DNA of 37,594 nucleotides, from IMG/VR virus record IMGVR_UViG_3300042542_003213, positions 1 to 37,594 of that record, one strand, 5' to 3'. The translations under genes and the position numbers were made by a program. A model generated the notes under the pieces. It searched no databases, had not been told where the DNA came from, and worked only from the letters and a program-made list of their open reading frames with translations. Origin of the DNA: a virus. Positions 5,955 to 24,632 of this stretch are shown piece by piece. How positions within the stretch are numbered: the first letter of the stretch is position 1; each line of letters opens with the position of its first letter.

Positions 5955-6589
5955 TGCTGCCGCCTCTCCCGCCGTGGCTCGCGCCGCGATACGCCCTGAC
6001 CGGCATCAAGCTGGGGCTGTCGGCTCTGTTACTGCTTGTCGCCGTTGTCGGGTGCAGCACCCAGACCGTGCGGCTTGAAGGCTTTCGGATCCAGCTTCCG
6101 CTGATCGGCACCATCGGCCCGCAGGGATGGAAGCCCTACGCCAAGGAACTTGAAGGCGAGGTTCGCTCGATCCGCATTGACCTGGAGCTTTCCGAAGCCC
6201 GCCACATCGCCACGAAGCGCGCTTACGAGGACGCGCAGGCCGAAGCCGCTCACATGGAAGCCGAACGACTGGCCCGCGTTGTGGCCCGTCAAGAGGAGAT
6301 CACCGATGAAGTCCGCCAAGATTACAGCCGCCGCATTGCTGACCTTCGCGCTCGCGCTGCCCGCTTGCAAGCCCAAGCCCGCGCCAGTGTTGGAGGTGCG
6401 TCCGGTGGTTTGCCAGTGCCCGAAACCGGCGACCCCGCCGCCCGAACTGATGCAGCGCCCGACTGTCGAGCACTTCCTGCCCCAGACCTGACCACTGAAA
6501 TCCACTGCCGCGAGATCGCAGAACAGCAGGCGACCCAACTGGGCGCGCTGATCGAATGGGTCGAGCGGCAGTTTCACATCAAGCCCTGA
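5954..6589 (+). CDS. Rz-like inner-membrane spanin subunit
   Basis: 211 residues from ATG 5954, chosen because it overlaps the previous stop as TGATG; an ATG at 5936 would add six residues. It has a membrane segment at about residues 15-34 (ALTGIKLGLSALLLLVAVVG), then a long charged, coiled-coil-prone region rich in Glu, Arg and Ala ('EAEAAHMEAERLARVVARQEE'-like content), as in i-spanins. The VVGC at the end of the membrane segment resembles a lipobox, which is unusual for Rz. With the nested lipoprotein it should span the periplasm and fuse the membranes at the last lysis step. Confidence 0.75.
   Translation: MLPPLPPWLAPRYALTGIKLGLSALLLLVAVVGCSTQTVRLEGFRIQLPLIGTIGPQGWKPYAKELEGEVRSIRIDLELSEARHIATKRAYEDAQAEAAHMEAERLARVVARQEEITDEVRQDYSRRIADLRARAARLQAQARASVGGASGGLPVPETGDPAARTDAAPDCRALPAPDLTTEIHCREIAEQQATQLGALIEWVERQFHIKP
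6306..6491 (+). CDS. Rz1-like outer-membrane lipoprotein spanin, nested in Rz
   Basis: A 61-residue frame lies wholly inside the Rz-like gene, shifted by one base. It begins MKSAKITAAALLTFALALPA, a classic lipoprotein signal with lipobox LPAC (Cys at about residue 21). A short Pro-rich mature part follows (KPKPAP, PKPATPPPEL). Signal, size, proline content and nested position are the textbook features of an o-spanin. Upstream 'GAGGAGATCACCG' inside Rz can serve as ribosome binding site. It is easily lost in automated calls because the overlap is total. Confidence 0.82.
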   Translation: MKSAKITAAALLTFALALPACKPKPAPVLEVRPVVCQCPKPATPPPELMQRPTVEHFLPQT

Positions 6590-6611
6590 TTTTCACGAAA
6601 GGAATTACCCC

Positions 6612-7049
6612 ATGGGAACTTTTGCTTCTGCCTCGCGCACCACTGGCGCGAACGCTGCCCGCGATGCGGCGCTTAATGCCATCACTGCTACCGTCAACAA
6701 CGGAAGCCTGCGCATTTACTCGGGCACCGCACCGGCGAATGCTGACGGCGCGCTTTCGGGCAACACGCTGCTGGCGCAGTTGACCCTCGGCGCAACCGCG
6801 TTTGGCGCGGCGTCTTCGGGTGTTGCCACCGCCAACGCCATCTCGGCTGACACCAGCGCGGACGCGACCGGCACGCCGACCTTCTTCCGGCTGCTGGCAT
6901 CAAACGGCACGACCGTTGTCTATCAGGGCACGGCGGGCGCATCGGGTCAGGAACTGAACCTGTCGAACCTGTCTGGCGGTCAGATCGTGGCGGGCGGCTC
7001 GGTTTCCGTCACCTCGCTCACCGTCACCCAGACCGCCTCTTACGCCTAA
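6612..7049 (+). CDS. Virion-associated fibre-region protein (145 aa)
   Basis: ATG 6612 follows an AAGGAA Shine-Dalgarno. The protein is Ala/Ser/Thr/Gly-rich with alternating beta character (IYSGTAPANADGALSGN, FFRLLASNGTTVVYQG, VTSLTVTQTASYA) and no membrane segment. Such compositions occur in small tail-fibre or decoration proteins, and similar proteins lie between lysis and fibre genes in alphaproteobacterial siphophages. A structural role is inferred from composition and from the adhesins immediately downstream. Exact function unknown. Confidence 0.65.
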   Translation: MGTFASASRTTGANAARDAALNAITATVNNGSLRIYSGTAPANADGALSGNTLLAQLTLGATAFGAASSGVATANAISADTSADATGTPTFFRLLASNGTTVVYQGTAGASGQELNLSNLSGGQIVAGGSVSVTSLTVTQTASYA

Positions 7050-7084
7050 TAGGAGGCCCAAGTGGCCGATAAGAGGAGCGACGT

Positions 7085-8386
7085 ATGATCCTACTCAATT
7101 CTACATCCGACACGCTGCGGCTAGTCACAGCGCAGGCGGGCGATGTTCGCGTCCATTCGGCTTTTGCCGATCTCGCCAGCGGTGCGGTGACGGTGGGGCG
7201 GCTCAATACATCCATCTCGACCGCGACCACGACTGACATTGTGGCGAGCCCTGCCGCTTCGACCTCGCGTGCCGTGCAATTCGTCAACATCTGGAACGAC
7301 AGCACGACGGACGCGAACAAGGTCACTATCCAGCACACGGATGGCACGACCACGGTTGACCTGTATGCGGTGTCGCTGCCCGCGCAGTCGGGGATTGTCT
7401 ATGTTGAGGGCGAGGGCTGGACTGTAACCGGCAATTCGCGGCCCACGAATATCCAAATATTTGCCGCCAGTGGCACATGGAACAAGCCGACCAGCTTTAC
7501 TCCTGCGGTGGTTATGGCTCGCGTCTGGGGTGCAGGCGGTGGCGGCGGTGGGGGATCGTCTCTGGCGACTGCGACCGTTACCAAAGGCGGCGGTGGCGGC
7601 GGTGGGGGCTGCTTTGTTGAGCGCATTTTCCGCGCCAGTGATCTTGGCGATACGGTAAGCGTGACCATTGGCGCAGGCGGTTCGGCAGGCACGGGCGCGA
7701 CGGCGGGCGGGTCAGGCGGTGACGGCGGCGTTGGGGGCAACACGACATTCGGCGCGCTGCTGACCGGCTATGGTGGCGGCGGCGGGAGAGGCGGGCAAAA
7801 CTCCGCGCTTGCAACTGGTGGTGGCGGCGGCGGGGGTGGTCACTCCGCAGGCACATCGGCGTCTGCTGCGATTGCCGGTACCGGCGGACAGCCAACATCG
7901 ACAGGGCCGGGGTTCGACATTCAAGGAATCACCGGGACGATTGGCGCTGGTAGCTCCCACTACGCCCATTTGGGCGGCGGCGGTGGGGGAGGTTCGTCCG
8001 CAGCGGCAGCGGTGACGGCGGGCGGCGGGTCGCTGTTCGGTGGCGGTGGCGGCGGATCGGGCGGCGGAACGTCCGCAGTTCCTGCTGTGATTACCGGGTC
8101 TTCTGGCGGCGGCTTTAGTTCTGTGGCTGGCGGTGGCGGTGTAAGCGGCCTTTCTGGCCCAGCACCGCAGCCCGGTGATGCGGGCGGGCCGACTAACGGC
8201 AACACTGGCGGCGCGGGCGGCGGCGGTGGCGGATCGACTGTGCAGGCTTCTACAAGCGGCGCTGCGGGCGGCGCAGGCGGGCTTGGCGGTGGTGGTGGCG
8301 GCGGCGGTGGCCGTGGCAGCAATCCGGGCCTTGGCGGCGCGGGCGGCGTCGGCGGTGATGGCTACTGCATCGTGATTTCGTGGTGA
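7085..8386 (+). CDS. Glycine-rich tail fibre tip adhesin, copy 1
   Basis: 433 residues. About residues 1-115 form a globular beta-rich N-terminal domain (MILLNSTSDTLRLVTAQ... HTDGTTTVDLYAVSLPAQSG). From about 120 a connector (FAASGTWNKP) leads into a glycine-rich region with repeated runs of 5-8 Gly, ending GYCIVISW. That architecture matches glycine-rich receptor-binding domains of phage distal adhesins (T4-group gp38 type), where loops between polyglycine sandwich motifs bind the receptor. The next gene is a paralogue of identical length. A GAGGAG site precedes the ATG; the start also overlaps a possible eight-codon minigene (7062-7088). Confidence 0.8.
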   Translation: MILLNSTSDTLRLVTAQAGDVRVHSAFADLASGAVTVGRLNTSISTATTTDIVASPAASTSRAVQFVNIWNDSTTDANKVTIQHTDGTTTVDLYAVSLPAQSGIVYVEGEGWTVTGNSRPTNIQIFAASGTWNKPTSFTPAVVMARVWGAGGGGGGGSSLATATVTKGGGGGGGGCFVERIFRASDLGDTVSVTIGAGGSAGTGATAGGSGGDGGVGGNTTFGALLTGYGGGGGRGGQNSALATGGGGGGGGHSAGTSASAAIAGTGGQPTSTGPGFDIQGITGTIGAGSSHYAHLGGGGGGGSSAAAAVTAGGGSLFGGGGGGSGGGTSAVPAVITGSSGGGFSSVAGGGGVSGLSGPAPQPGDAGGPTNGNTGGAGGGGGGSTVQASTSGAAGGAGGLGGGGGGGGGRGSNPGLGGAGGVGGDGYCIVISW

Positions 8387-8390
8387 CGCG

Positions 8391-9692
8391 ATGATCTATC
8401 TGGCATCCACCTCCGACAAATTGCAGGTCGTGACATCGAGCGCAAACCCGGTGCATGTTCATGCGACCTTCACGGACTTGTCTGGCACGACTGTAACGCC
8501 AGACCGCACAGACACCAGCATTGGGGCGGCAACCACGACGGACGTTGTGGCTAGTCCCGGTGCATCGACCACGCGCAAGATCAAGTTCCTGAGCGTGTTT
8601 AACGACCACGCCACGGCGGCGCAGAACATCGTTATCCGCCACACTGACGGCACGACTGTTGCCGATCTGTGGGCGGGGTCTGTGCCAGCGCAGACCGGCG
8701 TGACCTTTGACGAGAAATGCGGATGGCGAGTAGCTTCGCCGTTCCCCTCGGCTAACATCCAGACGTTTGACGCTCCCGGCGGGACTTGGACTAAACCCGC
8801 AGGCCCGCGCACCGGGCTGACCCTGATCCGGCTGTGGGGCGGAGGCGGTGGCGGCGGTGGCGGTGCCTCGCTCGCAACTGCCGCTGTCGCTAAGGGCGGC
8901 TCGGGCGGTGGCGGGGGCGCGTGCGTCAGCCAGCTTTATCTGACCGATGAACTGCCTGAACAATTTCGTGTGATTATCGGCGCTGGCGGCGGCGGTGGCC
9001 CTGGCGGGTTAGCTGGTCAAGCTGGCACGACTGGCGCTGATGGAAGATACTCGGCTGCCCGCGCATCGACCTATACGTTGCTGTTTGCTTATGGCGGGGC
9101 TGCGGGAACTGGCGGTCAGACCAGTGCTCTTGCTACTACGGGCGGCGGCGGCGCAGGTTTTCATGGCATCAATCAAGGGGCTGTGAACGCCTCGGCGGCT
9201 TCCGGGCAACCCACAAACGGCAGCAACTCATCGCCGTTTGGCCCAACATGGGAAGGCGGTTCTGGCGGGGGTGGATCGAGCAACAGCGCAACCGTGCCTG
9301 TGATGGTGGCGGGCGGCAATGCCCGGTTTGGCGGCGGCGGTGGCGGCTCGGGCGGTTGTCACAGTAACGTCCCGGCAAACATAGGCGCTACGGCGGGCGG
9401 CGGCACAGGCAACAGCGTTGGCGCTACGGCGGGCGGGCTTGGTGGCGCGGCAGGCACGAGCGGTGCATCGCCCACGGCAGGCCAAAACGGCGTTGACACT
9501 GACGGCATCGTAGGCGGCACAGGTGGGGGCGGGGGCGGCACAACTGTCACGGCATCCACGGCAGGCGCGGCGGGCGGCAATGGCGGCAAAGGTGGCGGCG
9601 GTGGTGGGGGCGGCGGTGTCGGCATGAACCCCGGCGTCGGTGGCAAAGGTGGCAACGGCGGCGCGGGCTTCGGGATTATCATATCATGGTGA
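8391..9692 (+). CDS. Glycine-rich tail fibre tip adhesin, copy 2
   Basis: Also 433 residues and plainly paralogous to the upstream gene. N-termini align throughout (STSDKLQVVTSS, ATTTDVVASPGAST, RHTDGTTVADLWAGSVPAQT). Both have a 'G-TW-KP' connector and a polyglycine body, and both end in I-I/V-SW. The glycine-rich loops differ more than the N-terminal domains. Tandem duplication followed by loop divergence would give alternative receptor specificity, or a two-protein tip. The gene starts four bases after the first copy's stop. Location at the distal tail is inferred from family architecture. Confidence 0.8.
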   Translation: MIYLASTSDKLQVVTSSANPVHVHATFTDLSGTTVTPDRTDTSIGAATTTDVVASPGASTTRKIKFLSVFNDHATAAQNIVIRHTDGTTVADLWAGSVPAQTGVTFDEKCGWRVASPFPSANIQTFDAPGGTWTKPAGPRTGLTLIRLWGGGGGGGGGASLATAAVAKGGSGGGGGACVSQLYLTDELPEQFRVIIGAGGGGGPGGLAGQAGTTGADGRYSAARASTYTLLFAYGGAAGTGGQTSALATTGGGGAGFHGINQGAVNASAASGQPTNGSNSSPFGPTWEGGSGGGGSSNSATVPVMVAGGNARFGGGGGGSGGCHSNVPANIGATAGGGTGNSVGATAGGLGGAAGTSGASPTAGQNGVDTDGIVGGTGGGGGGTTVTASTAGAAGGNGGKGGGGGGGGGVGMNPGVGGKGGNGGAGFGIIISW

Positions 9693-9904
9693 GCGGGAAG
9701 AAATTCGCCTTGGTGCGTGTCGCGGATGGCTGGGTGTGGAACACCTGCCGTTGGGACGGCGTGACGTATTGGAACCATCTGCCTGATGGCATTGATGAGA
9801 TCGAATGTCCTGAATATGTCGGGCCGGGATGGTTCTATGCTGGTGGCGAATGGCTAGCCCCGCCGCCACCAGAGCCTGAGCCCGATCCTCTGCTAGAGGA
9901 GTAA
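9686..9904 (+). CDS. Small aromatic-rich fibre accessory protein (72 aa)
   Basis: ATG 9686 overlaps the adhesin stop by seven bases. The protein is rich in Trp, Tyr, Gly and acidic residues (DGWVWNTCRWDGVTYWNHLP) and ends in a Pro/Glu tail (PPPPEPEPDPLLEE). Small proteins of this composition often follow phage fibre genes as caps, chaperones or host-recognition accessories. No named family is recognisable. Confidence 0.65.
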   Translation: MVSGKKFALVRVADGWVWNTCRWDGVTYWNHLPDGIDEIECPEYVGPGWFYAGGEWLAPPPPEPEPDPLLEE

Positions 9905-9907
9905 GCG

Positions 9908-11977
9908 ATGGCCCGTTTTGGTGCGTTCGATGCAACCCTAGACCCGAAGGCTTGGTTTGGCGCCAAGGTTCTGCCGGAAGGTTGGTTCGCGGATGAATTG
10001 ATCCCCACACCCGCGTCTGGCGCTGTTACTGTCCAGCACCTGATCGTCGCTGGCGGTGGGGCGGGTGGCCGGGGTGACTTCGGGCTTGCGTCCGGCGGTG
10101 GCGGGGCGGGTGGCTTACTCACCGGCACTTCATCCATCACGGCGACGGGTTCTTACACCGTCACGGTCGGCGCTGGCGGCGTTCCTGCAAGTTCGGGCTA
10201 CACTGACCGTGGCGGCAACGGCGGCAACTCGTCGTTCAATAGCCTGATCGCTATTGGCGGTGGCGGCGGTAACGCACTGGATACGCCTGACGGCGCTTCG
10301 GGCGGTTCGGGCGGCGGCGGGGGGCGCACAACCGGCGTTGGCGGTTCCGGCACATCTGGGCAAGGCAACGCGGGCGGCGATCTTGGCACCGGAGATGAAA
10401 ACTTCATCGCTGGTGGCGGGGGCGGCGCGGGGGCGGTTGGCGGCGACGGTATCGCGGGAACCATTGCGCCTATCGGCGGTGATGGCGGCGCGGGTGTTAG
10501 CTCATCAATCAGTGGTTCGGCTGTTACCTATGCAGGCGGGGGCGGCGCTGGGCGTTCTGGCCTAGGTGGCAGCGGCGGTGGCGGTGCTGGCGCGGACAAC
10601 GCAACTGGTGGCGCTGGCACAGCCAACACGGGCGGGGGTGGCGGCGGCGCAAGACAAGGGTTTGGCGGCGCAGGCGGCTCTGGCGTAGTCATCCTCCGCT
10701 ACGCCACGGCTGCTATGACCGCCACGGGCGGGACGGTCACGACCGTTGGCTCTGACACGGTTCACACGTTCAACAGCAGTGGCACGTTTACGGTTACGGC
10801 GATTGGCGGCGCGGGTGTAACTGGCACGGGTGCAGCGGTTGCGCCGAACCTGACGCTTGCCGCGCCTACCGCTGCGGGCGACGGCGCTTTCACGGTCGCG
10901 GGCATTACCGGCACCGCGGAAGCTGTCGCGCCGAACCTGACGCTTGATGCACCTGTTGCATCGGCTTCCGGTGCTTATGCGGTTGATGCTGTCACTGGCA
11001 CGGGCGATGCTGTTGCGCCTGCCCTGACGCTTGATGCGCCTACCGCAGCGGGCGACGGTGCATATACGGTTGCCGGTGTCACTGGCACCGCCGAGGCTAT
11101 CGCCCCTGCGATCACGCTTGATGCGCCTACCGCAGCGGCTTCCGGCGAGTATGTCGTATCCGGTGTCACCGGCACAGGTGCGGCGGTTGCGCCGAACCTG
11201 ACGCTTGACGCGCCGACCGCATCAGCCTCGGGCACGTTTGGCGCTGCCGTTACCGGCACTGCCGAAGCCATCGCTCCGGCTCTGACGCTCGACGCTCCGG
11301 TGGCCTCGGCGGCGGGGGACTATTCCGTCGATCCCGTCACCGGCACAGGCGTGGCGGTTGCGCCGAACCTTACCCTCGACAATCCGGCGGCGGCAGCGTC
11401 TGGCGAGTTTGTCGTCTCAGGCGTTACAGGCACGGCCAGCGCAGTTGCGCCGAACCTCACGCTCGACGCGCCTGTTGCCAGCGCAAGTGGTGATTTTGTC
11501 GCAGCAGGCGTTACCGGCACCGCCGAGGCCACGGCCCCCGCGCTGACGCTATCCGCCACGGCTGACGGCGCGGCAGCACATATCGCGCCGGTCAGCGGCA
11601 CGGCTGCTGCTGTCGCCCCAGCCCTGACACTCGACGCTCCGGTCGCATCCGCGTCTGGCGAGTTTGTCGTTTCTGGTGTCACTGGCACTGGTGCCGCTGT
11701 CGCCCCCGCGCTGTCTCTATCGCAGCCGGTTGCATCGGGCGACGGTTCCACTGCGGCCCAGCCTGTCGAGGGTTCCGGCGCGGCGGTCGCTCCTGCCCTA
11801 ACGCTGGTCGCAACGGCAAGCGCGCTTGGCAGCTATAGCGATTTCGTTATTTTCGCTCCGAGCCTCACCTTCACTGTCGAGCCCGAGCAGACTGTCTTCA
11901 CTGTCGAGTCCGAGCAGACCGTCTTCACTGTCGAGCCTGAGCAGACCGTTTTCATCGTCATACAAGAGGCCGCTTGA
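9908..11977 (+). CDS. Third glycine-rich fibre protein with a 12-unit repeat stalk
   Basis: 689 residues. A short N-terminal segment (about 1-42, FDATLDPKAWFGAKVLPEGW) is followed by a glycine-rich domain (about 43-265) beginning VQHLIVAGGGAGG and ending VVILRYA, the hallmark of glycine-rich adhesin domains. Residues about 300-635 comprise twelve degenerate units of about 29 residues with cores like VTGTGAAVAPNLTLDAP. The C-terminus has three exact-type copies of FTVEPEQTV. The protein looks like a binding domain plus an extended beta stalk or a repetitive display surface. It completes a three-adhesin block. It starts four bases after the preceding gene. Confidence 0.75.
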   Translation: MARFGAFDATLDPKAWFGAKVLPEGWFADELIPTPASGAVTVQHLIVAGGGAGGRGDFGLASGGGGAGGLLTGTSSITATGSYTVTVGAGGVPASSGYTDRGGNGGNSSFNSLIAIGGGGGNALDTPDGASGGSGGGGGRTTGVGGSGTSGQGNAGGDLGTGDENFIAGGGGGAGAVGGDGIAGTIAPIGGDGGAGVSSSISGSAVTYAGGGGAGRSGLGGSGGGGAGADNATGGAGTANTGGGGGGARQGFGGAGGSGVVILRYATAAMTATGGTVTTVGSDTVHTFNSSGTFTVTAIGGAGVTGTGAAVAPNLTLAAPTAAGDGAFTVAGITGTAEAVAPNLTLDAPVASASGAYAVDAVTGTGDAVAPALTLDAPTAAGDGAYTVAGVTGTAEAIAPAITLDAPTAAASGEYVVSGVTGTGAAVAPNLTLDAPTASASGTFGAAVTGTAEAIAPALTLDAPVASAAGDYSVDPVTGTGVAVAPNLTLDNPAAAASGEFVVSGVTGTASAVAPNLTLDAPVASASGDFVAAGVTGTAEATAPALTLSATADGAAAHIAPVSGTAAAVAPALTLDAPVASASGEFVVSGVTGTGAAVAPALSLSQPVASGDGSTAAQPVEGSGAAVAPALTLVATASALGSYSDFVIFAPSLTFTVEPEQTVFTVESEQTVFTVEPEQTVFIVIQEAA
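10817..11815 (+). repeat. Twelve degenerate ~29-residue tandem repeats in the third fibre gene
   Basis: Units begin V-T-G-T and continue A-V-A-P-(N/A)-L-T-L-(D)-A-P, with a variable half after each. Most neighbouring units alternate GTG and GTA-E forms, hinting at a two-unit (about 58-residue) period of expansion. DNA of units is similar but not identical, so duplication is not very recent. Confidence 0.75.
11870..11950 (+). repeat. Three tandem 27-bp repeats at the 3' end of the fibre gene
   Basis: Three consecutive 27-base units encode FTVE(P/S)EQTV. They differ at only a few bases and are followed by a partial TTC-ATC-GTC. The near identity, unlike the older 29-residue repeats upstream, indicates recent slippage expansion. 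Confidence 0.85.
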
Positions 11978-17477: not shown

Positions 17478-17890
17478 ACGCGCCCCTGATCGCAGCGCAG
17501 TCCCGCGATGGCGCATTAACCACGGGCGGCGTTAAGTGCGGCGGCATTGTCCTCCCGTTTCCTCCGAAGGTGCTTTGGCCGAACGGTCGCACCCTTAACC
17601 ACAAGTTCAAGGCGGCGGCTTTCAAGAAGGCCCGCGAGCAAGCGGCATGGGCCGCCAAGGCGGCGAACGTGCGCGTCGGCGATAGCCCGATCCCCGTTCA
17701 CCTGATCATCAAACCGAAGGCCAAGGGGCCAGCGCCAGACGCGGATAACTGTGTCTCGGCGGCAAAAGCCTACTTGGACGGCATCGCCGCAGCCATTGGA
17801 ATTAACGACCGCCACTTCGCCGCGCCCACGGTGGAGATTGATGGCGAACGCTCTGGGCAGTTTATCATCACGGTAGGAGAACCGCAATGA
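17474..17890 (+). CDS. RusA-like Holliday junction resolvase
   Basis: 138 residues from ATG 17474, overlapping the regulator stop as ATGA. It starts with an internal beta strand (IVLPFPPKVLWPNGRTLNHK) typical of RusA. The conserved acidic motif PDADNCVSAAKAYLDGIAAA is followed by 'GINDRHF', where the family's catalytic acidic residues lie (D-x-DN and ND). It should resolve Holliday or branched junctions during phage replication and before packaging. It is the first gene of a recombination block. Confidence 0.88.
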   Translation: MNAPLIAAQSRDGALTTGGVKCGGIVLPFPPKVLWPNGRTLNHKFKAAAFKKAREQAAWAAKAANVRVGDSPIPVHLIIKPKAKGPAPDADNCVSAAKAYLDGIAAAIGINDRHFAAPTVEIDGERSGQFIITVGEPQ

Positions 17891-18615
17891 CGACGCAGAC
17901 CAAGACCAAACCTCCGCAAAACGTATATCAAAAGATTGCCACGGTGCAGGCCGAATTGGCGAAGATCGGCATCAGCAAGAGCCGCAAGAACCAAACACCC
18001 GGCGCGCAATACAACTTTCGCGGCATTGACGAGGTGTATAACACGCTCGCCCCGCTGATGGCGGATAACGGGCTTTGCATCCTGCCCCGCATTGTTGAAC
18101 ACACAATGTCAGATCGCGGCAAGACCCGCAACGGCAACGCGATCTATTCCGCAATCGTCACGGCAGAGTTCGACTTCGTGAGCGCAGACGATGGCACAAT
18201 TCACGTTGTCCGCACAATGGGCGAGGCAATGGATAGCAGCGACAAGGCCACGAACAAAGCCATGTCGGCAGCTTACAAATACGCGGCGCTGATGACGTTT
18301 GCCATCCCGACTGAAGGTGACAATGACGCGGACGCGCACACGCATGAAGTTATCCCCACCGCGCCCGCTGAGAAAGTAGCACCGCCGCCTGTGAACGACG
18401 CACAGCTTGACGAACTGCAAATTCTTTTCGACCAGCTCGACGTTCCCGTTGCCGACTTCCTCGCTGTCGCCAAGGTGCCCAACCTGAAGGCACTGCCCGC
18501 ACCCTGGTTTGACCGCGCTAAGAAGTGGGTCAACGACAAGGCAGCGGAAAAGCGCGCCAAGCAAGACGACACGCTTGCGGATGACGCTGCGTTTCTGGCG
18601 GGAGATGTGGCATGA
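17887..18615 (+). CDS. ERF-family single-strand annealing recombinase
   Basis: 242 residues, coupled to RusA by ATGA. The N-terminal 135 residues match the ERF family: 'YQKIATVQAELAKIGISKS', 'YNFRGIDEVYNTLAPLMADN', 'DDGTIHVVRTMGEAMDSSDK' and 'NKAMSAAYKYAALMTFAIPT'. The C-terminal part is acidic and helical. ERF proteins anneal complementary single strands and promote circularisation or recombination. Neighbouring exonuclease, SSB-like and NinB genes form the rest of the pathway. Confidence 0.92.
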   Translation: MTTQTKTKPPQNVYQKIATVQAELAKIGISKSRKNQTPGAQYNFRGIDEVYNTLAPLMADNGLCILPRIVEHTMSDRGKTRNGNAIYSAIVTAEFDFVSADDGTIHVVRTMGEAMDSSDKATNKAMSAAYKYAALMTFAIPTEGDNDADAHTHEVIPTAPAEKVAPPPVNDAQLDELQILFDQLDVPVADFLAVAKVPNLKALPAPWFDRAKKWVNDKAAEKRAKQDDTLADDAAFLAGDVA

Positions 18616-19286
18616 TCGACGTGTATATTGATATAGAGACAGTGCCGAACCAGTCGCCCGAATACCGCGCCAAGGTTCGCGCTGGCATCAAAGCACCTGC
18701 GTCATACAAAAAGCCCGAAAGCATCGCGCAATGGCTTGCCGAGAACGCAGACGCGGAAGCAGACACGCAGATTGCCAAGACCAGCTTTGACCCTGCGGCA
18801 GGGCATATTGTGTGCATCGGCTTTTCAATCGCAGGCGGGCCTACCTATGCATTGTCCGCTACATCGGTGGAAGATGAAAAGACCATCCTGATTGCGTTCT
18901 TTGAAGCGTTGCGCCACCAGTTGCCAGACAACCCCGGCGTTGTGCGTTTCATCGGCCACTACATCACCGGCTTCGACTTGCGTTTCATCATCAACCGCGC
19001 AATCGTTCTCGGCGTGCCGATCCCGTCAATTATCCCCCGCGACATCAAGCCGTGGTCGCAAGATATTTTCGACACAATGGTCGCATGGTCAGGCCCGAAA
19101 GACCGCATCAGCCAAGCCAACCTTGCCGATGCACTAGGTATCGACGGGAACAAGGGCGACTTTGACGGTTCGCAAGTTGCCGAGGCTTGGGCGCGCGGCG
19201 AACATGAACGGATTGCAGAATATTGCCGGGGTGACGTTGAGACTGTCCGCGCAATTCATCGCCGCTTTGTTGCGGTTGGATATTAA
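18612..19286 (+). CDS. DnaQ-like 3'-5' exonuclease (PolB-proofreading-like)
   Basis: 224 residues, coupled by ATGA to the ERF gene. ExoI motif is VYIDIETVP (D7, E9). ExoII is 'FIGHYITGFDLRFIINRAIV', with D near residue 118. ExoIII is 'YCRGDVETVRAIHRRF', giving the conserved Tyr and Asp. These are the metal-binding residues of DEDDy exonucleases. It probably makes or trims single strands for the ERF protein. Confidence 0.88.
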   Translation: MIDVYIDIETVPNQSPEYRAKVRAGIKAPASYKKPESIAQWLAENADAEADTQIAKTSFDPAAGHIVCIGFSIAGGPTYALSATSVEDEKTILIAFFEALRHQLPDNPGVVRFIGHYITGFDLRFIINRAIVLGVPIPSIIPRDIKPWSQDIFDTMVAWSGPKDRISQANLADALGIDGNKGDFDGSQVAEAWARGEHERIAEYCRGDVETVRAIHRRFVAVGY

Positions 19287-19297
19287 GGAGAACACAC

Positions 19298-19573
19298 ATG
19301 AGCAACCGTAAAGACATCATGACCCCCCGCGCTGGCAAGGACGGCAAGACCTACTGGACGCGCATCGGCACGGCATGGGAAGGCCCGAAAGGCATCCAGC
19401 TTGTGTTTGACGCGCTGCCGATCCCTGACAGCGAGGGCCGCGTGGTCGCCAACCTGTTCGAGCCGCGTGAGCCTAACGGCGGGCGGCGTGACGAACAGCA
19501 CCGGCAGAACCTCGGGCGCGGGCAGCAGTCCGGTGGCTTCGACGACTTGGACGACGAAATCCCGCCTTTCTGA
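19298..19573 (+). CDS. Small protein with SSB-like acidic C-terminal tail (91 aa)
   Basis: ATG 19298 follows AAGGAG. The N-terminal part is a short beta-rich basic segment (DGKTYWTRIGTAWEGPKGIQ), too short for a complete bacterial SSB OB-fold. The C-terminus is Gly/Gln-rich then DDLDDEIPPF, strikingly like the SSB tail (DDDIPF) that recruits repair proteins. Sitting between the exonuclease and NinB, it may be a minimal single-strand binding protein or a decoy tail for host SSB partners. Confidence 0.7.
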   Translation: MSNRKDIMTPRAGKDGKTYWTRIGTAWEGPKGIQLVFDALPIPDSEGRVVANLFEPREPNGGRRDEQHRQNLGRGQQSGGFDDLDDEIPPF

Positions 19574-19605
19574 CGCGGTGGGGCCGGGTCCCCCTCTCCC
19601 TCCGC

Positions 19606-19636
19606 TGGCAGACCGGGGCCGCGTTGGCGTCTGCCA
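19606..19636 (+). other. Intergenic hairpin in the recombination operon
   Basis: TGGCAGAC (19606-19613) and GTCTGCCA (19629-19636) form a perfect eight-base stem around a 15-base G+C-rich loop, in the 86-base gap between the SSB-tail gene and the HNH-like gene. There is no U-tract, so it is more likely a processing or stability element than a terminator. Confidence 0.5.
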
Positions 19637-19659
19637 CCTTTACAGCCTAGGAGACGGCT

Positions 19660-19995
19660 ATGCTAATCCGCAAACTCCCCAAGAAACCTAAGCGCGAAAG
19701 CCGCTTCCGCTCGCAACGGCACTTAAACTTTGTCCGCAGCCATGCCTGCGTGGTCTGTGACGCTGAGGCACCGATTGAGGCCGCGCACGTTCGCTTGGGA
19801 TCGGGCGCTGGTATGGGGCAAAAGCCGCACGATTACTTAGCCGTCCCGCTGTGCAAGACCTGCCACGCTGCGCAACATAGGCATGGGGAGCGCACGTTCT
19901 GGCAAGACGACGATGTGCAAGCCATCATGGGCGAGTTGATCCGCACCAGCCCCGTAAGGCGCGAGATAGAGGCACACAGGGCGGAACATGGCTAA
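19660..19995 (+). CDS. HNH-like nuclease of the YbcO/Ref/DUF968 type
   Basis: 111 residues with a basic N-terminus (KLPKKPKRESRFRSQRHLNF). The metal and catalytic pattern is C-V-V-C, 'AAHVRLGSGAGMGQKPHDYL', 'VPLCKTCHAAQHRHGE'. This arrangement (Cys pair, His, KP-D, C-x2-CH, H) is that of small phage recombination nucleases. GGAG precedes the ATG. It overlaps ninB by eight bases. The likely role is cutting DNA during recombination or replication. Confidence 0.8.
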   Translation: MLIRKLPKKPKRESRFRSQRHLNFVRSHACVVCDAEAPIEAAHVRLGSGAGMGQKPHDYLAVPLCKTCHAAQHRHGERTFWQDDDVQAIMGELIRTSPVRREIEAHRAEHG

Positions 19996-20365
19996 TATCT
20001 TCCTGCTAGGCCCAAGCCAAAAAGCCTACGCCAAGCGCCTTATCGACGAAGCCTCGCCGGACATGGTTTGCAGGCTAGGCAAGGCCACGCGCTCCGACAA
20101 GCAGAACCGCAAGCTGTGGCCGATGATTGCCGATCTGAAGCGCCAGGTGCCGGACATGGCCCCGTTCACCGCCGAGCAAATCAAACTGCGGTTTCTTAAC
20201 GCGCTGGGTGTGGAAATGCAATTCCTGCCAGCGATTGAGGGCGGCGGAATGTTCCCAGTTGGAATGCGCAGTTCGACGCTGACGAAAGAGCAATTTGCCG
20301 GATTGATCGAGCTGCTTTACGCCTATGGGACGCAGCACGATGTCCAATGGACTGACCCCGCATAG
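19988..20365 (+). CDS. ninB: NinB (Orf) recombination mediator, complete copy
   Basis: 125 residues. The N-terminus reads 'FLLGPSQKAYAKRLIDEA', then 'RSDKQNRKLWPMIADLKRQV', 'EQIKLRFLNALGVEMQFLPA' and 'MRSSTLTKEQFAGLIELLYA'. This is the full pattern and length of lambda-type NinB/Orf. Orf binds SSB-coated DNA and helps load recombinases. A second, N-terminally lost copy lies at 22044-22310, fused to a methyltransferase piece. The last 85 residues of the two copies differ at nine positions by my count. Confidence 0.92.
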   Translation: MANIFLLGPSQKAYAKRLIDEASPDMVCRLGKATRSDKQNRKLWPMIADLKRQVPDMAPFTAEQIKLRFLNALGVEMQFLPAIEGGGMFPVGMRSSTLTKEQFAGLIELLYAYGTQHDVQWTDPA

Positions 20366-20469
20366 CCGCTTGCAATCGGTTCCGGGTATGTTAAACAAGT
20401 CGGGCGGGGTGATGCGCAAACATCTGCCCCGCCCTAACACAAACGCGGAGACACGCGCCTATGCCTTCC
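20099..20469 (+). repeat. Duplicated ninB segment, copy A
   Basis: From AAGCAG at 20099 through the ninB 3' end, the following intergenic hairpin and the first codons of the next gene, this DNA is strongly similar to 22044-22438 in direct orientation. Divergence is visible (about one residue in ten), so it is either an older duplication or recombination between related phages. Confidence 0.8.
20402..20434 (+). ncRNA. Intergenic hairpin after ninB, copy A (possible structured RNA)
   Basis: Outer arms GGGCGGGG (20402-20409) and CCCCGCCC (20427-20434) pair perfectly. Inner arms GATG (20411-20414) and CATC (20421-20424) pair around CGCAAA. No U-tract follows. The homologous hairpin at 22370-22402 has different bases in both arms but keeps pairing, so the structure itself seems to be conserved. 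It lies 26 bases before a start codon. Confidence 0.6.
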
Positions 20470-20997
20470 CAAGATATTACCGCCACCGATGCGTCTGCGC
20501 AAGCTGCGGACGACCTAAAACGCTATCGGGCGTTTATTGCGTCACGCGCGGTTGCCGGACAGATGCAGGGATTTACCCCGCACGAATTGAACCCGATGGC
20601 AAAGGCGCACCAGCGCGCTGCGTTGGACTTTGCGCTGCGCCGGGGCAAGTCGGCTGCGTTCCTTGATACCGGCCTAGGCAAGTCGTTTATTGAATTGGAA
20701 TTTGCGCGCCAGTGCGCCGAGGAAACCGGCAAGCCTTCACTTATCCTTACGCCGCTCGCGGTCGCTGGGCAGATGGTGCGCGAGGGCAATAAGTTTGGCA
20801 TCGACGCGCGCCAGATACGCGAGCAATCCGAAGTCGGCGCGGGCGTTATGGTGGCAAACTATGAGCGCCTGCCCAAGCTTGACCCTGAAACATTTGGCGC
20901 TGTCATTCTTGACGAAAGCAGCATCCTGAAAAGCTACGCAGGCCAGGCTTTAGAGACGATTTTGCGACCCACGCGAGCACCTTCGGCCTCACGTTAG
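20461..20997 (+). pseudogene. N-terminal fragment of a SNF2/DEAD-type helicase
   Basis: 178 residues. It contains the Q-like and Walker A region (HQRAALDFALRRGKSAAFLD then TGLGKS), motif Ia (LILTPLAVAGQMVREG) and a DEAD-box equivalent 'VILDESSILK'. Homology ends there at 'KSYAGQ', after which 'ALETILRPTRAPSASR' runs to a stop. The rest of the helicase, usually fused to a DNA methylase in such phages, is missing. A methylase piece appears 730 bases downstream. The fragment retains ATP-binding motifs but is unlikely to be a working helicase. The start ATG 20461 is shared with the duplicated segment. Confidence 0.8.
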
Positions 20998-21069
20998 ATG
21001 CGGCGGCCTCGCTTGCGATCCGCGACGAATTGCAAACCCGGTGGCTGGGGACACAACTAGGGATCGAAG

Positions 21070-21086
21070 GGAATCATCTTGATTCC
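21070..21086. promoter_or_regulatory. Inverted repeat upstream of the inserted gene
   Basis: GGAATCA (21070-21076) and TGATTCC (21080-21086) are perfect complements around TCT. The surrounding 170 bases between the helicase remnant and the next ATG have no convincing gene and are A+T-richer than flanks. The site could be an operator or a short hairpin controlling an autonomously expressed inserted gene. Confidence 0.45.
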
Positions 21087-21170
21087 TGAAAGTGAAAATG
21101 AGACAAAGACGGGAGGAACGTAGGGTTGGACGCGCATGATCGCCGCATCGATCCTTCAAGGACATGCATA

Positions 21171-21719
21171 ATGGCACTTTCGGTCATAAACACTGAGGCT
21201 CCCAATCGCATGGGCGCGGTGCTCGACTGGGCATCGATTCAGTGGGCTCAATTTGAACATGACGAGAAGTACCATCGGGAGATTAGCCGGCTCTCGGTGC
21301 AAGACCGCTTGCGCCACATGGCCCTTCATTTCGCAAAGTATGCCGGTCGCCTAAATGACCGCCCAACTGACGAAGTTGTAAAGAAGACCGCGGTCGATAC
21401 CCTGATCATTGCCATTTCCTGCGCCAATATCCTCAACATGGACTTGAGCAAGAAATCGCTCATAGCGATCGGCAAAGAGGTCAATAACAGCGAATTTTCG
21501 AGATTGCTCATTGTCGCTGCTGGAAAGATGGCGGGCGCGTGCGAGCGCATTGACCATCTCGAAGATTTTCCTTTTCGAAAGGTGATCGCAGAACAAGTCG
21601 AAGTTATCTTGTCTACTGCGCTTGCCTTTCTAATCGATAATGGCTGGAATGTCGTTTCCGAGATGAACGACCGGCTTTCCGGGGTGAAAGAAAAATCTAT
21701 CTTTCACGGTAAGTTGTAA
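21171..21719 (+). CDS. Inserted gene of unknown function (182 aa), possibly MazG-like
   Basis: Start at ATG 21171 with AAGGA eight bases upstream. The sequence is visibly lower in G+C than all neighbours. It is helical: 'LSVQDRLRHMALHFAKYAGR', 'KKTAVDTLIIAISCANILNM', 'IAEQVEVILSTALAFLIDNG'. The first two segments resemble the spacing of all-alpha NTP pyrophosphatases (MazG-like). However, the metal-binding E-x-x-E is not evident, so any such fold would be degenerate or different. It sits exactly where a helicase-methylase gene has been lost, with its own possible regulatory repeat, so it looks like an acquired accessory gene (moron). Confidence 0.65.
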   Translation: MALSVINTEAPNRMGAVLDWASIQWAQFEHDEKYHREISRLSVQDRLRHMALHFAKYAGRLNDRPTDEVVKKTAVDTLIIAISCANILNMDLSKKSLIAIGKEVNNSEFSRLLIVAAGKMAGACERIDHLEDFPFRKVIAEQVEVILSTALAFLIDNGWNVVSEMNDRLSGVKEKSIFHGKL

Positions 21720-21728
21720 GCTCGCGCA

Positions 21729-22310
21729 ATGGCGTTCTGGGGTGGCGCGAAGATCCTTATTGAGGTCGAAAAGCAAGGGATTGTGCAGCCCTTTTGCAAA
21801 GACCAGATTGATTGTTCTGCATACACATTGACGCGCGTGATGAAGCCGGGGCGTATTGCCTGCGTCCATTGCACCGACTTGCCGATGCGCAAGGGCCGCG
21901 ATGGAGCAATCGGGCTGCAAGACTTTAGCGGCGATCTGATAAATGCGCACACTGAAGCGGGCCTAATCTATCATGGCCGTGCGACGATATGGAAAGACCC
22001 CGTAGTCGAGATGCAGCGCACCAAGGCTCTCGGGTTGCTGTATAAGCAGATCCGCAAGCTGTGGCCCATGATTGCCGATCTAAAGCGCCAGGTGCCGGAC
22101 ATGACCCCGTTCACTGCCGAGCAAATCAAGCTGCGGTTTCTTAACGCGCTAGGTGTGGAAATGCAATTTCTGCCAGCGATTGAAGGGCAAGGCGTCTTTC
22201 CCGTGGGCCTGCGCAGCTCAACGCTGACGAAAGAACAATTCGCCGGATTGATCGAGCTGCTTTACGCATACGGGGCGCAGCATGGCGTGGTGTGGAGCGA
22301 CCCCGAATAG
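21729..22310 (+). CDS. Chimera: DNA methylase piece fused in frame to NinB C-terminus
   Basis: 193 residues. Residues about 30-105 match the C-terminal half of phage DNA methylases linked to helicases: 'LTRVMKPGRIACVHCTDLPM', 'RKGRDGAIGLQDFSGDLI', 'YHGRATIWKDPVVEMQRTKA'. At 'GLLYKQ' it switches to 'RKLWPMIADLKRQV' and continues as NinB to 'WSDPE'. The switch coincides with AAGCAG, shared with the intact ninB. Upstream methylase motifs (the SAM-binding DPF/GxG and DPPY) are missing, so methylation is unlikely. The NinB half also lacks about 39 N-terminal residues. The open frame is intact, suggesting recent formation or a retained use. Confidence 0.8.
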   Translation: MAFWGGAKILIEVEKQGIVQPFCKDQIDCSAYTLTRVMKPGRIACVHCTDLPMRKGRDGAIGLQDFSGDLINAHTEAGLIYHGRATIWKDPVVEMQRTKALGLLYKQIRKLWPMIADLKRQVPDMTPFTAEQIKLRFLNALGVEMQFLPAIEGQGVFPVGLRSSTLTKEQFAGLIELLYAYGAQHGVVWSDPE

Positions 22311-22438
22311 CAACCCTCGGGAACTACGCATAGGCGCTTGCAATCAGTTGCGGGTGTGTTAGAAAGGTCGGGCGGAGAGGTGTTTGCGCGCCTGCTCCGC
22401 CCTATCATCAACGCGAAGGAACCGCGCCTATGACTTCC
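22044..22438 (+). repeat. Duplicated ninB segment, copy B
   Basis: Direct repeat of 20099-20469, starting at AAGCAG (22044) inside the chimera. It includes a hairpin at 22370-22402 and a shared leader into the next ATG (GCGCCTATG). A roughly 24-base longer stretch follows its stop codon. Recombination between copies would delete the intervening 1.9 kb and leave a normal ninB followed by the 60-residue gene. Confidence 0.8.
22370..22402 (+). ncRNA. Intergenic hairpin after ninB, copy B (covaries with copy A)
   Basis: Outer arms GGGCGGAG (22370-22377) and CTCCGCCC (22395-22402) pair perfectly, with a compensating change relative to copy A (G-C to A-T pair). Inner arms GGTG and CGCC pair with one T-G wobble. 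Total length is 33 bases in both copies. Paired changes in both arms are evidence that the structure, not just the sequence, is maintained. Confidence 0.6.
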
Positions 22439-22612
22439 GAATATGATACCGCTAGCAGTGCGCCTGCGCAAGGGCTGGTTGACCCTATCATCACAAACGC
22501 CCGCATTGCCAACTGGCACGCCGAGATCGAGCGCAAACTTGCGGCGCGTAGGGCATTGCGTCCTGCCCGCTCCGATGCCGCACGCAAAGGCTGGGAGGTG
22601 CGCCGTGGCTGA
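22430..22612 (+). CDS. Small hypothetical protein (60 aa)
   Basis: ATG 22430 lies in the same leader that precedes the helicase fragment at 20461, and their first codons are similar. The product (MTSEYDTASSAPAQGLVDPI) continues with a basic helix (HAEIERKLAARRALRPARSD). Its end overlaps the next GTG by eight bases. Function unknown. It is the gene that would directly follow ninB if the rearranged segment were lost. Confidence 0.65.
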   Translation: MTSEYDTASSAPAQGLVDPIITNARIANWHAEIERKLAARRALRPARSDAARKGWEVRRG

Positions 22613-22847
22613 CCCCCCGCGCAAACTTGACGCCGTGTTGGCCGCGATGCGCGCCGATAACTGGCGTGAGGCAATTTTGCTTGCCGCTAAGTTCCCGCGC
22701 CTCGGCGCACAGGAAAAGGCGATCACCCGCGCCCGCGAGGCGCTGCTGCGCCCTGATTTTCAGAAACAACTAGGCCGCGAACCTGCTGCGCTGATCGAAG
22801 CGGGCAAGGCGGCACTCATCGAAAGGTATGGCGATGCAGGAAACTGA
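22605..22847 (+). CDS. Small helical protein (80 aa), GTG start
   Basis: GTG 22605 overlaps the previous stop. The product starts MADPPRKLDAVLAAMRADNW and includes 'REAILLAAKFPRLGAQEKAI' and 'REPAALIEAGKAALIERYGD'. This helical pattern is common in replication regions of alphaproteobacterial phages, next to helicase and methylase genes. Exact role unknown. Confidence 0.72.
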   Translation: MADPPRKLDAVLAAMRADNWREAILLAAKFPRLGAQEKAITRAREALLRPDFQKQLGREPAALIEAGKAALIERYGDAGN

Positions 22848-23148
22848 CTTGTTCGGGGAGCCCGTCGTTAACGGCCACAAATCCGTGCTGGCGAGGACGT
22901 TTGATTACCCGCCCTTTTCTGTCCTCAATGCCCGCGAAGGCTGGTGGCAGGAGCGCAAGCGGCAATGGCTTGCGCTGGGCATTAAAAGCGAGGTCGGGCG
23001 CGGTGGCGATATGCTTGGCAACGGGGGGGGGGCTGACATGGGGGGACAGCCCGCAGATCACGGAGCGCGGCCTCAATTTCTACAGGAAACAAAAGGCTGC
23101 GTCACTTTCGGCGCAAGGCTCGGCAAATTCCGGCGAGGTGCAAGATGA
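22834..23148 (+). CDS. N-terminal part of a frameshifted DNA methyltransferase
   Basis: Start at ATG 22834, with GAAAGG seven bases upstream (the ATG at 22828 is too close). The first 66 residues are family-like (ETDLFGEPVV, 'YPPFSVLNAREGWWQERKRQ', 'WLALGIKSEVGRG'), the usual opening of phage N4/N6 methyltransferases. Then a run of ten G (23023-23032) puts the sequence out of frame: the family-like continuation 'LTWGDSPQITERGLNFYRKQ' is in the next frame. As read, the protein ends with an unrelated tail at 23148. See the C-terminal part at 23216. Confidence 0.7.
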   Translation: MQETDLFGEPVVNGHKSVLARTFDYPPFSVLNAREGWWQERKRQWLALGIKSEVGRGGDMLGNGGGADMGGQPADHGARPQFLQETKGCVTFGARLGKFRRGAR

Positions 23149-23219
23149 CTAAGCAATACGCACGCACCTTCGGGCAAGACCTAATGCGCGGCGAACACCG
23201 CGTAGGGGGGGGCAAGTGA
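23145..23219 (+). pseudogene. Middle fragment of the frameshifted methyltransferase
   Basis: A 24-codon frame (MTKQYARTFGQDLMRGEHRV then GGGK) lies between the two larger methyltransferase parts and stops just after a run of eight G (23205-23212). Its content fits the linker of the same enzyme. It could also be a tiny overlapping gene, since its ATG overlaps the stop of the preceding frame, but a fragment is more likely. Confidence 0.45.
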
Positions 23220-24010
23220 GCGCGCCCGCAACAGACTTGGCCGCACGTAAGGCTTGCCCCGGCGGGCATAGCGGCTCGCCCTTGTCTGCTTACACTGTCA
23301 GCGAAGAAAGCGGCAGCGGCACCAGCATTTTTGACCCCGTGCTTACTGAGCTTTGCTACCGTTGGTTTTGCCCGCCGGGGGGCGTAATTGCCGACCCCTT
23401 CGCGGGCGGCAGCGTGCGCGGCATCGTCGCAAGCGTCCTCGGCTTCCAATATCACGGATTTGAATTGCGGCCCGAACAGGTTGCGGCAAACGAAGCGCAA
23501 GCAGCGGCTATTACGCCGGACTGCCCGCCGCGCTGGTATTGCGGCGATAGCGCGGAAACCCTGCCCGCATGGGGCGGCGCTGCTGACTTCCTGTTTAGCT
23601 GCCCGCCTTACGGCGATTTAGAAGTCTACAGCGACTTGCCGGAAGACCTTAGCGCAATGCCGCACGAGGAATTTCTGCACAGCTACAAGCGTATCATTGC
23701 GGCAGGAGTTGCAAAACTAAAGCCTGACCGTTTTGCTTGCTTCGTTGTGGGGGACTACCGATGCAAGAAGGGCTTTTACCGCAACTTTACGGGCGCAACG
23801 GTTGAGGCGTTCGAGGCGGCGGGTGCGCGGCTTTATAACGAGGCGATTTTGGTCACGGCGGTCGGTTCACTGCCCATTCGCATAACCAAGCAATTCAAGG
23901 CGGGGCGCAAGCTGGGCAAGACGCACCAAAACATTCTTGTTTTCTGCAAGGGCGACCCGAAGCGCGCCGCCGATGCCTGCGAAGGCCGGGAGGTGCGCCG
24001 TGACCGTTGA
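23216..24010 (+). CDS. DNA methyltransferase, C-terminal catalytic part (N4/N6 type)
   Basis: 264 residues from GTG 23216. It carries 'TSIFDPVLTELCYRWFCPPG', the SAM-binding motif DPFAGGSVRG (motif I), and the catalytic SCPPY (motif IV), followed by 'KTHQNILVFCKGDPKRA'. These are beta-class adenine/cytosine-N4 methyltransferase hallmarks. It lacks the N-terminal domain, which is upstream in other frames, separated by G10 and G8 runs. If translated alone it keeps both core motifs. The arrangement could be sequence error, real decay, or slippage-controlled expression. Confidence 0.75.
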   Translation: MSAPATDLAARKACPGGHSGSPLSAYTVSEESGSGTSIFDPVLTELCYRWFCPPGGVIADPFAGGSVRGIVASVLGFQYHGFELRPEQVAANEAQAAAITPDCPPRWYCGDSAETLPAWGGAADFLFSCPPYGDLEVYSDLPEDLSAMPHEEFLHSYKRIIAAGVAKLKPDRFACFVVGDYRCKKGFYRNFTGATVEAFEAAGARLYNEAILVTAVGSLPIRITKQFKAGRKLGKTHQNILVFCKGDPKRAADACEGREVRRDR

Positions 24011-24632
24011 AGAACTCAAATACCTGCGCTGCCCCGACAAGATCAGGGCCAACCTAATCAACATGGGCGGGCCGCGTCTTAGCATTGCCGAGATCGAGCG
24101 CCGCCTCGCACGGTTGCCGGTCAAGGTCGAGGGCGCACACATCGGCGATCCAACCGAAGGCGACGGCATAGACTTTCGCGTGCGCGGTATCGTCAAGCCG
24201 CTCCCGGCGCGGCGCGGCACATCGACCATCACTGCCGAGGAACGCAAGCGCATTGCCGAACTGGCAAAGGGCATCCCCGACAAGCCCAAGCAGAAAACAG
24301 CGGTGCTTCGCTACAAAGGCCCGCCGCCTGTTTACGGCAGCACCAACTACGCCGACAGCGTGATCGAGCGGGTCTGCGATGCGATGGATTTGCCGCGTGA
24401 GACGTTCTTTAGTGCGTCTCGGCAAAAGTATGTCGTGGCAGCTCGGTCGCTTGTCACGCGCGTCCTGCGCGACCGTAACACGGCGATATATTCCTACCCG
24501 CGCATTGCCGAGATTGTGGGCCGGAACGATCATAGCACGATGATCTGGGCATATCAGCAGTTTGACCACTACTGCACGCTCTTTCCGATCCTGCGCCCGA
24601 TTTATGACGAATTGCGGGAGGTGGGCAAGTGA
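24000..24632 (+). CDS. Protein with C-terminal DnaA domain-IV-like DNA-binding region
   Basis: 210 residues from GTG 24000, overlapping the methyltransferase end. The N-terminal half has an HTH-like stretch (INMGGPRLSIAEIERRLARL) and a basic linker. Residues about 130-205 match the DnaA C-terminal domain: 'SRQKYVVAARSLVTRVLRDR', 'SYPRIAEIVGRNDHSTMIWA', the second like the DnaA signature GGRDHTT. It has no AAA+ ATPase. It likely binds DnaA-box-like sites as a phage replication or regulatory factor, next to the O-like gene. Confidence 0.82.
   Translation: MTVEELKYLRCPDKIRANLINMGGPRLSIAEIERRLARLPVKVEGAHIGDPTEGDGIDFRVRGIVKPLPARRGTSTITAEERKRIAELAKGIPDKPKQKTAVLRYKGPPPVYGSTNYADSVIERVCDAMDLPRETFFSASRQKYVVAARSLVTRVLRDRNTAIYSYPRIAEIVGRNDHSTMIWAYQQFDHYCTLFPILRPIYDELREVGK

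Follow-up and report, generated by a model that had tools for sequence, protein, structure and literature searches.

The window analysed here is an IMG/VR virus contig of 37,594 nucleotides, carrying genes for a terminase, a lysozyme, ERF, a PolB-type exonuclease, HNH, NinB and a protein with a DnaA C-terminal domain. ERF, a Rad52-like recombinase, was encoded at 17887-18615 (PF04404, E 6e-20). Long glycine-rich genes and genes with 87-nt repeats lay at 7500-11960 and probably encode tail or adhesin proteins with tandem repeats. Relatives of NinB at 60% adjoined an HNH gene in 2 of 401 Sphingomonadales genomes; together with the origin of the insert described below, these relatives suggest that the host may be a sphingomonad. 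The features of the locus were as follows.

19284-22607, no strand: block common to the window and phage contig L006, 99.8% identical, both flanks differing
19660-19995, plus strand: HNH endonuclease-like gene (DUF968; Pfam DUF968 E 4e-14)
19988-20365, plus strand: ninB copy 1, complete, 125 aa, lambda Orf/NinB family (PF05772 E 2e-19)
20099-20503, plus strand: repeat copy 1, with the ninB 3' part, the hairpin and the leader with the first codons of the next gene
20402-20434, plus strand: hairpin 3' of ninB copy 1 (97-nt stretch, z -2.5)
20461-20997, plus strand: helicase fragment, made of the leader peptide MPSQDITATDASAQ and the N-terminal part of a Pan4-type helicase
20947-21830, plus strand: Sphingomonadales chromosomal operon fragment, in place of 1161 bp of helicase/methylase
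20950-21089, plus strand: 3' end of operon gene A, no family, 41-51% aa identity to L017 and L019
21171-21719, plus strand: operon gene B, complete, 182 aa from MALS; phrog_19333
21729-22310, plus strand: in-frame chimeric ORF of 193 codons (gene C about 34, methylase about 76, NinB 88)
21831-22057, plus strand: methylase middle segment, DNA identity 86% to L029 and 78% to Pan4
22044-22058, plus strand: methylase/ninB junction, AAGCAGATCCGCAAG vs AAGCAGAACCGCAAG in ninB
22044-22472, plus strand: repeat copy 2, with the C-terminal 88 codons of ninB, the hairpin and the leader
22370-22402, plus strand: hairpin 3' of ninB copy 2 (103-nt stretch, z -3.8)
22430-22612, plus strand: 60-residue gene, the uninterrupted counterpart of the L007 gene split by helicase and methylase
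22593-22607, plus strand: linker GGGAGGTGCGCCGTG (ribosome-binding site and start codon), right edge of the block
22608-24002, plus strand: extra 1395 bp with a methylase at 23216-24010 (phrog_12517), between two linker copies
24000-24632, plus strand: DnaA C-terminal-domain gene, right flank common to L006, L007, L027 and L028

The 3' part of ninB, the hairpin behind it and the leader of the next gene were present twice in direct orientation with both copies starting at AAGCAG, as the sequence-only reading had claimed. The ungapped core of the repeat (20099-20366 and 22044-22311) covered 268 nt at 86% identity with a spacing of 1945, its longest exact word common to both copies was 26 bp, and similarity extended through the leader at 82% (20359-20414 and 22327-22382) and 80% (20454-20503 and 22423-22472). 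A chance origin was excluded, because the gapped alignment of both copies as one (78% over 436 columns) reached E 8e-103. The earlier count of 9 differing residues out of 85 in the NinB parts also held, the amino acid being changed in 10 of 88 codons, one of which was at the junction itself. The helicase fragment, low-G+C gene (about 50% versus about 58% G+C) and methylase piece of that reading were all found between the copies. The hairpin that it placed downstream of ninB was recovered as a G+C-rich fold in copy 1, copy 2 and the phage contig L007, and the stem of copy 2 was preserved by a G-C to A-T change matching on both sides. The hairpin was kept in the three alleles with matching stem changes, and a T run behind it was absent. 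No sigma-70 promoters above chance were found.

Copy 1 was a complete member of the NinB/Orf recombination mediator family (PF05772), full-length and above the gathering score (70 bits, positions 15-131 of 131), whereas copy 2 covered positions 42-131 only (its last 88 codons) and stood behind fused deaminase-like and methylase pieces. L007 carried a single ninB, with 97% DNA identity to copy 1 through the leader. Over the common ninB part, copy 1 was 96.2% identical to L007, and identities were 85.6% between copies 1 and 2 and 85% between copy 2 and L007. Both copies were equidistant (68-72% DNA identity) from the outgroups L008, L009 and L015, and copy 2 was therefore not a decaying duplicate. 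With dS of 0.58 and dN of 0.067 between the copies, dN/dS was about 0.12, which indicated that they diverged as working genes; the substitution pattern is that of two working genes in separate lineages. Since copy 1 was nearer to L007 than to copy 2 and the outgroup distances were equal, the copies are best explained as two alleles of different lineages rather than as a duplication in situ, copy 2 being an older, separately evolved ninB allele. These relationships rest on DNA identities in place of a NinB protein tree, which remained unresolved, partly because the L008 row was one base out of frame. The suggestion that the locus is a mosaic of two related phage lineages was supported by the 96-97% identity of L007 ninB to copy 1 and by copy 2 as a separate allele. 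The exact parent alleles, namely the copy-2 phage and the donor operon, were not found.

Between the two copies, each segment could be assigned a parentage, and every broken gene had intact relatives. Helicase homology ended at about 20946, after DESSILKSYAG. The helicase fragment had 85% amino acid identity to Pseudanabaena phage Pan4 (ON968455) and 87% to contig L029, and differed in type from the L007 helicase behind the same leader. The methylase segment was 86% identical to that of Pan4 in amino acids and to that of L029 in DNA. Helicase and methylase were intact and adjacent in Pan4 and L029, whereas the window held fragments only. Positions 20946-21831 of the window matched 6459-7620 of L029, 1161 bp being replaced by about 885 bp. 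Among the 79 helicase loci compared (L029-L107), nearly all of those with enough contig showed a full helicase and then a methylase. L069 was alone in having the helicase cut at the codon of the window, through a deletion at the break codon and without insert; at 6040-7499 of this locus, the truncated helicase (SFAG) was directly followed by an intact methylase.

Past the leader, L007 encoded a full helicase (470 aa), a full methylase (321 aa) and then the small gene. The first 14 codons of its helicase were those of the leader (MPSQDITATDAPAQ), and its small gene started with GTG ACA GAC CCC CTT (TDPLI...). The second leader of the window (MTSEYDTASSAPAQ) read directly into the remainder of the small gene (GLVDPIITNARIANWH...), which was also unsplit in L027 and L028 (in the form MATILPTAWSPSAQLTDPLIVNARL... 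in L028). These two contigs were without ninB and helicase at the locus; L028 had a DUF1367 gene there, and the L027 gene at the ninB position encoded nearly the same protein. On the simplest reading, helicase and methylase would have entered the small gene past its first ~14 codons, and its start region would have passed to the helicase. Copy 2 would then stand for the empty state of the locus, and copy 1 would mark the left end of an occupied one. Accessory genes did come and go here, as had been proposed, the sequence behind the leader of ninB or of the small gene differing among L007, L006 and window copy 1, window copy 2, L028 and L027.

The methylase piece and the second NinB part formed one ORF, a point that the sequence-only reading had left out. 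They were joined in frame at the 15-base near-identity AAGCAGANCCGCAAG, the methylase segment ending with LLYKQIRK and entering NinB at AAGCAGA(T/A)CCGCAAG (KQIRK / KQNRK). In a same-strand comparison of ninB with the L052 methylase gene, the word AAGCAGATCCGCAA ranked first, and with that of Pan4 it was tied for first, in the frame register. It was outside the top matches with the L029 methylase, and 6 of 100 trials with codon-shuffled ninB attained a score of 12; the microhomology is for these two reasons suggestive only, and would be a likely but not proven cause of the join. Among other viral contigs, the exact junction was found in L006 only.

The segment behind the helicase break was a piece of a Sphingomonadales operon, in which the low-G+C gene (gene B) was flanked by the end of gene A and the start of gene C, both absent from the sequence-only reading. 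The insert was colinear with A-B-C of L017 and L019, with B-C matches in L018 and L020 too. Gene order and sequence were shared with the operon of Qipengyuania, Blastomonas and other Sphingomonadales (L017-L020; gene B at 45-61% aa), but A and C were cut in the phage and B alone was whole. Counterparts of gene B showed 58-61% identity in Qipengyuania pacifica, Blastomonas natatoria and a Sphingomonadales MAG; in a fourth genome the value was 45%. Of 351 genomes from the order, 2 had gene B (the search-centre genome and the MAG already known). The operon is rare, and gene B is accompanied in it by a dCTP-deaminase-like protein that may be membrane-tethered. That protein, gene C, belonged to PF22769 and had a hydrophobic C-terminal stretch; the full domain was present in L017, L018, L020 and L022, and the window retained about 34 N-terminal codons (MAFWGG...IDCSAYTL, 51-57% aa). 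No donor of the deaminase start and gene A end was found among phages.

The whole arrangement was not confined to the window. From 19460 to 22607, L006 was identical to the window, with six differences in 19284-19459, and outside the block the flanks aligned at 86-93% or were unalignable. The block thus defined, reaching from about 19284 to 22607, was larger than the cassette first described. Its left edge coincided with the start of an SSB-like gene found in both contigs, differences occurring only up to 19459, and its right edge with the linker GGGAGGTGCGCCGTG, again in both. Since 19460-22607 was base-identical in L006 while the flanks had diverged, an assembly error is improbable, and the block probably travels as one unit. 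The 15 linker bases recurred at 23988-24002, and the extra 1395 bp between both linkers was absent from L006, L007 and L028, which passed straight to the DnaA-domain gene. The stretch at 22608-24002 forms a second accessory slot adjoining the first. Long G runs (about 10, 6 and 8 G) occurred within it at 23015-23050 and 23200-23225, at which pieces of the phrog_12517 gene were split over ORFs 22828-23148 and 23216-24010, which may reflect a slippage-prone tract, a gene that is broken, or indel errors.

The cassette is very probably the scar of recombination in a mosaic phage that encodes Erf, where two alleles were joined out of register and the composite spread as a block. Allele 1 would have consisted of ninB, the leader, the helicase gene, the methylase gene and the remainder of the small gene, and allele 2 of ninB followed by the leader running straight into the intact small gene. 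An out-of-register crossover at the 15-base near-identity would have joined the methylase of allele 1 to the ninB of allele 2, keeping the frame and leaving a partial second ninB. In a separate event, which may have preceded or followed the crossover, a piece of a host chromosomal operon would have replaced the helicase/methylase junction region. The composite would then have spread as one block to another phage via homology at its ends. The recombinase responsible was presumably the phage Erf with NinB/Orf and the SSB-like protein, and working proteins would be expected only from ninB copy 1, gene B and the small gene.

A tandem duplication of ninB and its leader within one phage, with later insertion between the copies and divergence, could account for direct copies 1.9 kb apart, but is very unlikely. 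A recent duplication would leave the copies nearer to each other than to orthologues, and they were 86% identical as against 96% between copy 1 and L007 ninB. Copy 2 displayed no rate excess, the divergence between the copies was mostly synonymous, and the 3' neighbour of copy 2 was the other allele state (leader joined to small gene); duplication in place was rejected on the identities and the equal outgroup distances. Three broken genes joined at one place in a metagenomic contig could also be a chimera assembled from two co-occurring phages. This is improbable, and so is the assembly artefact that the sequence-only reading had named as its refuter, given that L006 had every join base for base over 3.1 kb between different flanks; a short-read assembler, confronted with a shared block, would be expected to break there and not to make identical false joins in two contigs. 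If both contigs came from the same assembly, they would count less as independent evidence. For a mobile cassette (transposon, integron cassette or homing element) ending in the repeats, the flanking direct repeats and the common end codon of the window and L069 helicases could be put forward. Such an origin is scarcely credible, the repeats being gene parts diverged by 14%, L069 having a deletion only and no insert, no transposase, integrase or homing nuclease occurring between the copies, and the inverted repeats of the region being short, imperfect and chance-like, with no terminal inverted repeat. This candidate was rejected for want of both recombinase gene and terminal repeats.

Selection for gene B might instead have kept the composite, the phage then carrying one component of a host operon for nucleotide metabolism or defence (e.g., for counter-defence). 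B was the only complete gene of the insert and adjoined the dCTP-deaminase-like gene C in L017-L020, L022 and L115, and L020 and L022 also held nearby genes with a 5-hmdU kinase domain, which, with a thymidylate synthase, is reported as newly validated in phage defence (PMC13092281). This is nevertheless unlikely, as B had no PADLOC match and no fold relative, and the two phage copies of the block showed zero divergence, for which reason selection on B is not measurable. That B acts in counter-defence in the phage while the 193-residue chimera is expressed and modulates recombination through its NinB C-terminal domain is more doubtful still. Apart from these readings, recombination between the ninB copies is predicted to yield ninB followed by the small gene; no collapsed product of this kind was found among the viral contigs scanned, nor any amplified form, and the proposal of an amplifiable module found no support in these contigs.

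The scar is best compared with the mosaicism of temperate (lambdoid) phages formed by relaxed homologous recombination (De Paepe 2014, PMC3945230; Martinsohn 2008, PMC2327257), with which it shares sharp-edged near-identical blocks in otherwise diverged phages, Erf and Orf/NinB encoded nearby and short homology at the block edge. Temperate phages that encode Rad52-like recombinases are known to exchange DNA through short stretches of homology at expression signals, and the linker-bounded block fits such exchange. Rad52-like recombinases and Orf (NinB) promote mosaics in lambda, where Orf raises Red-beta-dependent exchange about tenfold (PMC3945230), and Red efficiently recombines genes diverged by 22% (PMC2327257). 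Unlike the lambdoid cases, the block of the window has part of an allele duplicated and part of a host operon captured within it, and the host of the phage is probably a sphingomonad. The mechanism is ordinary and already known; the locus is a clear new example of it, and an unusually readable one. The steps by which phage mosaics form are usually erased by later selection, whereas at this locus intact relatives exist for every piece and allow the joins to be placed within a few bases. The steps are an in-frame out-of-register crossover between two alleles, the replacement of 1.2 kb by host operon sequence and the later passage of the composite to another phage. Accessory genes are also seen here to enter inside a small gene whose start region is kept.

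The insert further points to an undescribed Sphingomonadales A-B-C operon with a dCTP-deaminase-like protein, and gene B and its operon are the best open lead. Gene B had no match in Pfam, NCBIfam or PADLOC and was rejected as a known defence protein on this ground; its AlphaFold model (all-helical, pLDDT 83) had no PDB neighbour at E<=0.001. The operon was located at 4551-6835 of L017, 4538-6855 of L018 and 4540-6398 of L019, with a DUF1643 gene on the opposite strand, and may be a nucleotide-based conflict system. In L022 (2433-7420), B and C stood in a row with genes for an IrrE-type peptidase, a papain-like protease and a 5-hmdU kinase-domain protein, and with a 273-aa gene that had no Pfam match and appeared thymidylate-synthase-like by eye.
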